64,000 nt of DNA. Origin: Bacilli bacterium. GTDB taxonomy: Bacteria; Bacillota_I; Bacilli_A; RF39; UBA660. This document shows positions 41,402 through 46,851 of the stretch, one piece after another; position 1 is the first letter of the stretch; every line of letters starts with the position of its first letter. The notes beneath the pieces were generated by a model. It was not told the origin of the DNA. It saw nothing but the letters and a program-made list of their open reading frames with translations, and searched no databases. The stretch covers positions 217,156 to 281,155 of the forward strand of contig JAGBNN010000002.1 in assembly GCA_017634385.1 (NCBI GenBank), in the 5' to 3' direction. Position numbers and translations under genes: made by a program.

Positions 41402-42442
41402 TTATTCTTCCTCCTTTCTATCAAATATTTTTGATTCTCTTAAATCTACATTATAGAAAGTTCTTATATCATTTATTCCATATTTAAGCATTGCGCATCT
41501 TTCAGCACCAAATCCAAATGCGAACCCACTCCATTTATTTGGATCATATCCACATCCTTTTAATACATCATAATGTACTACTCCTGCTCCTCCTATTGTT
41601 ATCCATCCAGTATTCTTACAAATACTGCATCCTTTTCCTTTACAACTAAAGCATGATATATCCATTTCTACAGAAGGTTCTGTAAATTGATAGTATGATG
41701 GTCTAAATCTAGTAATAGTATCTTCTCCAAATAATCTTTTACATATTACTGTTACTGTTCCTTTTAAGTCAGATAATTTTATGTTTTTATCAACTATTAA
41801 TCCTTCTATTTGAGTAAACTCATGTGAATGAGTTGCATCATCGTCATCTCTTCTATATGCTTTACCAGGACATATAACTCTTACTGGTTCTTCTCCACCT
41901 TTTTGAAGCATTACTCTAGCTTGTACAGGTGATGTATGAGAACGAAGTAATAATTCATCTCCTTTTACATAGAATGTATCTTGAGCATCTCTTGCTGGAT
42001 GTCCTTTTGGAAGTCCTAATAATTCAAAATTAAATTTATCTTCTTCAAGTTCAGGTCCATCTACTACATCATATCCCATAGACATAAATACTTCTTCAAA
42101 ATCTTCAATAACTTTTTCAAGTATTGAAGGAGCTCCTACTGGTATTTGTGTTGATGGAAGTGAAATATCAATTGCTTCACTTTCTAACTTTTTATTTAAT
42201 TCTTCTTGTTCATATTTTTCTTTTAATTCATCTAATTTTTCTGATACATGAGTTCTAAGTTCATTTAATATCATTCCAAATGTTTTTTTATCTTCTACTT
42301 CTCTCATCATTGAAGTAAGTTGTGCGATTGGTCCTTTTTTACCTATATATTCGATTTTTAAATCATTTAATTCTTTTAATGATTTAATATTTTTTATTTG
42401 TTCATCGAATTTTAATCTTATTTCTTCTACTTTCTCTTTCAT
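41402..42442 (-). CDS. pheS: Phenylalanyl-tRNA synthetase alpha subunit
   Basis: A 346-residue catalytic subunit with an N-terminal coiled coil and class II motifs: motif 2 in RTHSPVQARVM-like LLRSHTSPVQARVMLQ and VICPGKAYRRDDDDATHSHE, and motif 3 in GFAFGFGAERCAMLKYGI. An unusual CFSCKGKGCSICKNTGW insertion provides a possible zinc site. It sits downstream of a Phe-type T-box leader. Confidence 0.97.
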   Translation of the reverse strand: MKEKVEEIRLKFDEQIKNIKSLKELNDLKIEYIGKKGPIAQLTSMMREVEDKKTFGMILNELRTHVSEKLDELKEKYEQEELNKKLESEAIDISLPSTQIPVGAPSILEKVIEDFEEVFMSMGYDVVDGPELEEDKFNFELLGLPKGHPARDAQDTFYVKGDELLLRSHTSPVQARVMLQKGGEEPVRVICPGKAYRRDDDDATHSHEFTQIEGLIVDKNIKLSDLKGTVTVICKRLFGEDTITRFRPSYYQFTEPSVEMDISCFSCKGKGCSICKNTGWITIGGAGVVHYDVLKGCGYDPNKWSGFAFGFGAERCAMLKYGINDIRTFYNVDLRESKIFDRKEEE

Positions 42443-45818: not shown

Positions 45819-46700
45819 TTATATATCTTTTATTTTATCAAATATTTCATTTAATAACAATTCTATATATTTGAAATTTTGCATTTCATTAATTGCAAAA
45901 CATTTTTTACCTATATCTTTTAACGATGATCCACATACAAATAGTCTTTTTCTATCTATTATTATAAATCTATCATGAAATGAGTCATTTTTTATAAAAG
46001 TTACATTATTATATTGTTCTTCATATTTTTTCTTTAAAATATTATCTATATTCTTAGATACTATTATTACTTGTTGATTTATATTTCTCAAGCAATCTAA
46101 TAGTTCTTTTCCTGCATAATTATCTATTATAATTATTTCTTCTTTAGATTTATTAAAGATATCCATAACAATAGAATATGCATCATATATATCATTTTCA
46201 AAAAATATACTATTATATGTAATATCTTTCGGATTAAACTTATCAAACAATTCATCTATTCTTTTAGTATTATTATCAACTTTATCTTCTAATAGCATAA
46301 ATCTTCTAGGTAATAAATCCCTATTATAATTAATAAAATGTCTCATTTTGACAAATGTATCCATTATTCGAATACTTACTTGTATAGCTTCTTTAGATTT
46401 TAATATTGTTGCGAGCATATAAATACCTTGTTCAGTGAATACACGTGGATTACTTCTAGACTTTGGGCTTATATTTGCAGTCGCATTTTGCGACCACAAA
46501 TTTTTAACCTCATTTTCATTTGTTATCCACGATATTCTTTCTGGAAATTTTTCCTTGTTACGAGATACTGATTCATTTATTCTTTTAGTTTCAACATGAT
46601 ATAGTTTTGCTAAATCAGAATCAAGCATAACCTCCACTCCATTAATTTCATAAATCATATCTTTTATATCTATATTTTCATTTTCTATTATTTCGTTCAT
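45819..46700 (-). CDS. ORF6N-domain protein with C-terminal PLD-like domain
   Basis: A 293-residue protein with an ORF6N domain in the first 110 residues (EINGVEVMLDSDLAKLYHVE, TKRINESVSRNKEKFPER, NPRVFTEQGIYMLATILKS) and a PLD-like C-terminal domain with DRFIIIDRKRLFVCGSSLKD near residues 245-264. The HKD motif is reduced to HDRF. ORF6N occurs in phage antirepressors and in scattered host genes. The ATG at 46700 follows GGAGG, and the start lies about 24 nt after the terminator of an upstream structured RNA. Confidence 0.85.
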   Translation of the reverse strand: MNEIIENENIDIKDMIYEINGVEVMLDSDLAKLYHVETKRINESVSRNKEKFPERISWITNENEVKNLWSQNATANISPKSRSNPRVFTEQGIYMLATILKSKEAIQVSIRIMDTFVKMRHFINYNRDLLPRRFMLLEDKVDNNTKRIDELFDKFNPKDITYNSIFFENDIYDAYSIVMDIFNKSKEEIIIIDNYAGKELLDCLRNINQQVIIVSKNIDNILKKKYEEQYNNVTFIKNDSFHDRFIIIDRKRLFVCGSSLKDIGKKCFAINEMQNFKYIELLLNEIFDKIKDI

Positions 46701-46723: not shown

Positions 46724-46752
46724 TAAAAAAGGAAGATACAATTGTATCTTCC
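46724..46752 (-). terminator. Terminator ending the structured RNA
   Basis: GGAAGATAC and GTATCTTCC arms with an AATT loop (46731-46752) followed by six T on the minus strand. Confidence 0.85.
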
Positions 46753-46836
46753 CGAATAGATATATTTCTTCTTGCCTAGAAATATAAATTATCATCATAA
46801 ATTTTGATGTATTAACCCTTGGCAAGTAATTAATAC
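46724..46836 (-). ncRNA. Candidate structured RNA with kissing hairpins upstream of the ORF6N gene
   Basis: About 113 nt from a predicted start at 46836 to the terminator at 46731-46752. Hairpin P1 (7 bp, 46809-46836) has a 14-nt loop containing CTTGCC. Hairpin P3 (9 bp, arms 46761-46769 and 46778-46786) has an 8-nt loop containing GGCAAG, complementary to it. A short hairpin CATCA/TGATG lies between. The two loops could form a 6-bp kissing interaction. The RNA ends about 10 nt before the ORF6N Shine-Dalgarno, so it may be a leader acting by attenuation or an independent small RNA. No known riboswitch consensus fits. Structure is by hand pairing only. Confidence 0.55.
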
Positions 46837-46842
46837 ATTTTA

Positions 46843-46851
46843 ATTATATCA
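46843..46851 (-). promoter_or_regulatory. Extended -10 promoter of the structured RNA
   Basis: TGATATAAT on the minus strand (TATAAT at 46843-46848) overlaps the ABC-F stop codon. The predicted start at 46836 is the first base of hairpin P1. Confidence 0.6.

Follow-up and report, generated by a model that had tools for sequence, protein, structure and literature searches.

A conserved RNA with kissing hairpin loops and a terminator precedes unrelated candidate phage-defence genes in small-genome gut Bacilli

The window, that is, the whole stretch of 64,000 nucleotides of a Bacilli bacterium contig analysed here, carries on its minus strand a compact RNA upstream of a gene coding for an ORF6N-domain protein. 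The RNA proper spans positions 46836-46725 and consists of two hairpins, P1 and P2, followed by a terminator that precedes the start of the ORF6N gene. Its features, and what each assignment is based on, are as follows:

46851-46843, minus strand: extended -10 TGATATAAT, predicted from the sequence and from the conserved -10 position over the copies described below
46836-46809, minus strand: hairpin P1, arms 46836-46830 and 46815-46809, 7 bp (sequence and covariation)
46826-46821, minus strand: kissing loop CTTGCC in P1 (sequence)
46808-46787, minus strand: linker with the conserved AATTT and the 5' strand of the short helix P3 (alignment of 84 copies)
U46794, G46793 and possibly A46792, minus strand: 5' strand of P3 (alignment of 84 copies)
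46786-46761, minus strand: hairpin P2, arms 46786-46778 and 46769-46761, 9 bp, 8-nt loop (sequence and covariation)
46776-46771, minus strand: kissing loop GGCAAG in P2 (sequence)
46760-46752, minus strand: conserved tail TCTATTCGG, subtype 2, forming the 3' strand of P3 (alignment)
46753-46731 (stem) and 46730-46725 (six-U run), minus strand: intrinsic terminator with a 10-bp stem and an AATT loop (terminator scan)
46715-46708, minus strand: Shine-Dalgarno (SD) sequence of the ORF6N gene, with the ATG at 46700 (sequence)
46700-45819, minus strand: gene for an ORF6N-domain protein of 293 aa (Pfam ORF6N, E=2.7e-27; PDC-S05, E=1.9e-88)

The last tail bases of the window RNA double as the first bases of the terminator stem, and a terminator scan over 6 kb found two terminator-like sites against 0.2 expected. 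The RNA has a folding z-score of -3.67, with an equally good fold in 1 of 200 shuffles. In its minimum-energy fold, CTTGCC and GGCAAG form an ordinary stem and P1 is absent; since the single-sequence prediction prefers this ordinary stem, the kissing form is unreadable from the window sequence alone and it is the homologues that decide. P3 amounts to a G-U and a G-C pair, with an A-U pair possible, and both P3 and the conserved unpaired stretches appear in a divergent form in the window copy. The promoter site is absent from the listing of the promoter scan and has no -35 match. The ORF6N protein matches the PADLOC model PDC-S05 over residues 4-286, which makes it a candidate for a defence role. 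By sequence, no solved relative of this protein was found; its C-terminal part (45819-46090, minus strand) contains FHDRFIIID...GSS, which we take to be reminiscent of phospholipase D-like nucleases. On the other side of the RNA, an ABC-F-like gene with two ABC domains (48348-46849, minus strand) has its stop directly before the -10 of the RNA. Elsewhere in the window, a T-box leader (42670-42475, minus strand; Rfam RF00230, 127 bits) sits upstream of a gene resembling pheS (41402-42442).

A contig scan with the ORF6N protein returned 46 loci, mostly from gut assemblies labelled Bacilli, Bacillales, Erysipelotrichaceae or Tenericutes, and many of them have a common element upstream of the gene. 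A covariance model (R1) was built from eight of the ORF6N loci, with the window excluded. Run on all 46 loci and the window, it gave 28 matches, namely 27 copies in 26 loci and the window copy itself (E=0.023); several of the remaining loci start inside or near the gene, so that a leader is not visible there. With a broader model (R2), built from 41 copies including that of the window and run under strict filters by which weak copies may be lost, the RNA was found in 39/385 genomes of the order to which locus L021 belongs (L and G numbers are our labels for loci and genomes) and in 29/193 genomes of one family. Broader samples at the level of class and phylum contained it in 8/395 and 2/392 genomes, all of which are also within the order sample; one searched genome set had been chosen for having an ORF6N homologue, and the kinship of those genomes was not given. 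The RNA-bearing genomes from the order and family searches measure about 0.8-1.9 Mb. As far as seen, the RNA is restricted to one order of small-genome gut Bacilli, which we presume to be RF39 of GTDB. The covariance searches yielded 89 copies in total, not counting duplicate loci (e.g. L047-L052, L054, L055, L060-L062, L064-L066, L069, L071, L072, L074, L080, L084-L086, L102, L106 and L121-L136).

Aligned, the copies begin with P1; a linker in which AATTT, CG and TA are conserved leads to P2, and a tail and the terminator follow. The tail is of two types, GCATGMTGCGG and ATCTATTCGG, the second of which occurs in the window, in L013, L020, L104 and in others. Covariation was scored on 84 copies, 81 of them distinct, in an alignment fitted to P1, P2 and P3, with the kissing pairs left outside the model. 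Overall, 94.4% of the cells are paired, and two-sided changes occur in 25 of the 26 pairs (P1 7/7, P2 11/11, kissing pairs 6/6, P3 1/2); for the kissing pairs the paired fraction is 97.2%. None of 500 shuffles matched the observed values, and sliding the partners against each other abolishes pairing. RNAalifold, given a plain MAFFT alignment of 23 copies, itself proposed the kissing pairs, five of the six with compensatory change. The loops vary together as TTTGCC/GGCAAA, CTAGCC/GGCTAG, CCTACC/GGTAGG, CTTGTC/GACAAG, AGTTGC/GCAACT, TCTAGC/GCTAGA, TCTTAC/GTAAGA and CTTGCT/AGCAAG, and the kissing pair is broken in a few copies, e.g. L001, L056 and L103. Comparison of the copies thus confirms a structured RNA with kissing loops as real and conserved. 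An earlier note on this DNA had described the two hairpins and their complementary loops, had suggested the kiss and had named a covariance-model search and compensatory loop changes as the way to check it; the hairpins are present, every P1 and P2 pair shows two-sided change, and the loop pairs change together over the 84 aligned copies. That description was right but an understatement; it named neither P3 nor the conserved unpaired stretches.

No Rfam 15 family was found at its gathering cut-off for this RNA in the window, in 16 loci or in stretches of L041, L104 and L137, in agreement with the earlier note, for which no known riboswitch consensus fitted, and the guanidine riboswitch families were likewise not found at the Rfam cut-off on any stretch searched. 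Rows below the cut-off, such as mir-2943 on the AT-rich L104 (E=0.0021, 26.6 bits vs 76), were rejected as chance. In the part of the literature that was covered, which had most subscription papers and preprints outside its scope, no description of this RNA was found. A conserved leader peptide was also rejected, as the linker contains an ATG in many subtype-1 copies and, by eye, in none of subtype 2.

A -10 with at least 5/6 matches lies upstream of 77/85 copies, and for 51 of those 77 the distance from its end to the motif is exactly 5 nt. Because a control stretch inside genes also reaches a 5/6 match in 44/84 cases, the fixed position is more telling than the score. The terminator is present in 85/87 copies. 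Both the putative promoter and the strong terminator of the earlier note are found where it had placed them, the former without a -35. From the end of the terminator stem to the SD-like motif the median distance is 13 nt (at most 40 nt in 75/84 copies), and because the terminator ends so shortly before this motif, most of the downstream genes need read-through. The gene start lies up to about 140 nt past the motif in the RhuM-Fic, the DinD and some of the KilA-N copies, where a second promoter behind the terminator is possible. A mutually exclusive antiterminator was not found when the motif was paired with its own terminator arm (-6.10 kcal/mol) and with the arms of other copies (-6.59 kcal/mol). 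As own-versus-cross pairing is without signal, and as P3 and the terminator overlap by one or two bases only, a classical antiterminator was rejected.

Of the 89 copies in the census, 28 were reached through ORF6N and 61 otherwise, and the downstream gene was assigned by tblastn to representatives. ORF6N genes follow 42 copies, RhuM-Fic genes 15, KilA-N 8, DUF1016 5, DinD 4, REase-like genes 3, a metallophosphatase 2, BRO 1 and an unmatched gene 1 (L093), while 8 received no assignment by tblastn. These 8 comprise one ToxN gene (L137), three contig ends (L077, L089, L120), which are counted in the 89 and excluded from the 58 informative copies below, the second copy of L001 with a decayed ORF6N start, and three places without a related gene (L099, L142, L144). 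Informative copies that were not reached through ORF6N number 58, of which 52 have a gene of a defence-type family behind them (ORF6N 15, RhuM-Fic 15, KilA-N 8, DUF1016 5, DinD 4, REase-like 3, BRO 1, ToxN 1) and 6 precede a metallophosphatase, an unmatched gene or no related gene. Among the 42 copies that first turned up in the searches of the order and the family, 40 are informative, and 35 of these precede defence-type families. Several of the genes behind the RNA are fragments. PADLOC, run on 11 representative proteins, with the other copies classed by tblastn, matched PDC-S05, S23, S22, S02 and S13 and, for ToxN, AbiQ; the REase_II match of the REase-like representatives is weak (E=2.8e-7 and 9.2e-8). 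PDC stands for phage defence candidate, as the term is used in PMC11514479. The link to ORF6N proposed in the earlier note thus stands for the window, where such a gene does lie behind the RNA, and falls as an exclusive one: by the gene assignments, the RNA is not tied to ORF6N and is found ahead of eight or more unrelated families, most of them phage-defence candidates.

The same RNA is used before different genes within one genome. Genome G012 contains three copies, 98-100% identical over the motif, before ORF6N, RhuM-Fic and KilA-N, all with the rare CTAGCC/GGCTAG kiss, and the ORF6N and RhuM-Fic copies share a block of 173 bp (96%) that covers the promoter region, the RNA and the terminator. 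When the gene-less copies L099, L120 and L142 are left out and the decayed second L001 copy is classed as ORF6N, the RNA identity between copies of the same genome before different families averages 0.827 (17 pairs), as compared to 0.691 between genomes for the same family (963 pairs) and 0.651 for the others (2250 pairs). None of 2000 permutations of the genome labels reached 0.827. The family labels carry some signal too, with a value as high in 1 of 2000 permutations, and when each of the 40 non-ORF6N copies is compared with its closest copy from another genome, the family agrees in 9.0 cases, vs 3.8 expected. Dissimilar pairs within one genome (0.593-0.678) occur in G300, G016 and G918.

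This sharing ahead of different genes might also be explained by a mobile or recombining DNA block, a cassette or MITE-like element whose RNA structure is a by-product or a recombination site. In L087 and L096, by eye, remnants of an ORF6N-like gene start separate the RNA from a KilA-N or DUF1016 gene, which looks like gene turnover behind one leader and would fit such a block, as would the apparent gain of the RNA at a ToxN locus. However, the orientation, the distance to the start codon and the -10 position are fixed and the terminator is kept. A phage or plasmid home was rejected, since the window ORF6N protein had no relative in viral contigs, two exact RNA patterns likewise gave none, and one RNA copy had no blastn match in phage and plasmid records, although a motif of this kind is easily missed by exact patterns and by blastn. 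We regard a mobile block as an improbable explanation in place of a leader role; the two could both be true at once.

The gene families are also found without the RNA, as RhuM and ToxN loci show. The RNA was present in 0/30 RhuM loci fetched and, at E<=0.1, in 0/18 picked RhuM loci, two of which had weak matches at 0.13 and 0.41; the 18 were picked by hand from rows whose match to the RhuM model lies mostly in its N-terminal part, and two such rows, G089:C14 and G053:C8, are the RNA-bearing L095 and L101 and were kept outside the 18. ToxN was found in 43/193 genomes of the order, with the RNA in 0/30 fetched ToxN loci (L146-L175) and, judged by eye and with some stretches set on a wrong start, ToxI-like repeats in 27/28 ToxN upstream stretches. 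At L137, ToxI-like repeats of about 34 nt (3.1 copies) come first, followed by a terminator, a -10, the RNA, its terminator, an SD and ToxN. The -10 ahead of the RNA resembles the one ahead of ToxN in L157, and in this single example the ToxN leader seems to have received the RNA together with its terminator. The ToxN search suggests that the frame of this ToxN is disrupted near its end.

One might speculate from this locus that the RNA is a type III-like antitoxin, which inactivates the product of the downstream gene by binding to it, while a leaky terminator sets the ratio of RNA to protein. The order RNA, terminator, gene is indeed that of ToxI and ToxN, one copy does precede ToxN, and several of the downstream families are candidate abortive-infection genes. 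Unlike ToxI, a toxin-specific tandem repeat of about 34-36 nt, the RNA is a single unit without tandem repeats and is common to unrelated genes; it is nearly identical (98-100%) before three families in one genome, and RhuM-type genes occur without it. Because a ToxI-like array is already present beside ToxN in L137 and has been retained there, the RNA is probably not the antitoxin at this locus, and we consider an antitoxin function very unlikely in general. Little credence can likewise be given to a free small RNA that acts in trans and lies ahead of genes by accident: it would account for the RNA having its own promoter and terminator, but with few exceptions the informative copies are immediately followed by a gene of the same strand, at a short spacing to the SD, and the gene-less copies L099, L142 and L144 resemble remnants. 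Of the attenuating leader or small RNA considered in the earlier note, the leader holds up and the small RNA loses its place as an equal alternative. Autoregulation by an encoded protein that binds its own leader is the least plausible. In its favour, ORF6N, KilA-N, Bro-N and RhuM proteins presumably bind nucleic acid, but DUF1016, ToxN, REase-like and metallophosphatase genes have the same RNA without a common domain.

The RNA is more general than first described, a shared leader of defence-candidate genes without an Rfam match. We consider it probable that it is a modular, cis-acting leader that sets terminator read-through into these genes in response to a shared signal. Transcription would start at or beside P1, P1 and P2 would lock through the six-pair kissing interaction, P3 would close P2 as a short helix, and the end of the motif would feed into the terminator stem. 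Without the signal, the terminator would form and the gene would stay low; a cell-wide signal, either a small molecule or an RNA-binding factor, could alter the stability of the kissing fold and hence the terminator, and could in this way switch a set of mostly single-gene defence candidates. Because the motif ends in one or two bases that also begin the terminator stem, a rigid kissing fold could hinder the terminator, a mechanism also proposed for guanidine-IV RNAs, whose authors suggest that a rigid kissing structure hinders the outer terminator pairs (PMC7736828). According to the same paper, guanidine-IV RNAs (GGAM-1 motif) have hairpins with a loop pseudoknot, end in a terminator, lie upstream of several non-homologous genes and are cis-acting ON switches that control termination (PMC7736828). 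This analogy counts for the leader reading. They differ from the window RNA in having the terminator stem within the binding structure and genes concerned with guanidine downstream (PMC7736828), whereas in the window RNA the kiss joins P1 and P2, the terminator is separate and the genes of the set are defence candidates.

Granted a leader, we lean slightly towards a switch that turns genes ON rather than OFF. One step further, it is conceivable, though we hold it only tentatively, that the RNA is an ON switch that senses infection or a metabolite for a regulon of unrelated phage-defence genes in this order of gut Bacilli, and a plug-in, riboswitch-like leader open to any defence gene, including a type III toxin already furnished with its own antitoxin. 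Two further RNAs resemble the proposed leader. The purine riboswitch fold also has two hairpins with a loop-loop interaction and controls transcription; unlike it, the window RNA has no closing P1 helix around both hairpins, shares no consensus with it and has no Rfam match. The put RNA of phage HK022 likewise has two adjacent hairpins and acts in cis on terminators without an antiterminator hairpin, but it belongs to another host and other genes.

The regulation of single-gene defence candidates is largely unknown, and the findings suggest that one RNA switch serves a whole group of defence genes. If these genes share a structured leader, they can be approached together, and the signal of that leader, once found, would reveal what the cells recognise as infection. 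If the leader reading is true, this would be a class of RNA switch with targets defined by defence rather than by one metabolic pathway. The RNA model would also serve to search for further defence genes, with an REase-like protein, a metallophosphatase and the unmatched gene of L093 as candidates so far. The first belongs to an unnamed family of about 250 aa behind the RNA in L109, L118 and L145, without a Pfam match and with the weak REase_II match given above. For the metallophosphatase (L079) and the L093 gene no PADLOC model was matched. The small metallophosphatase lies behind the RNA in L079, L093 and L107, and in L093 the unmatched gene precedes it.
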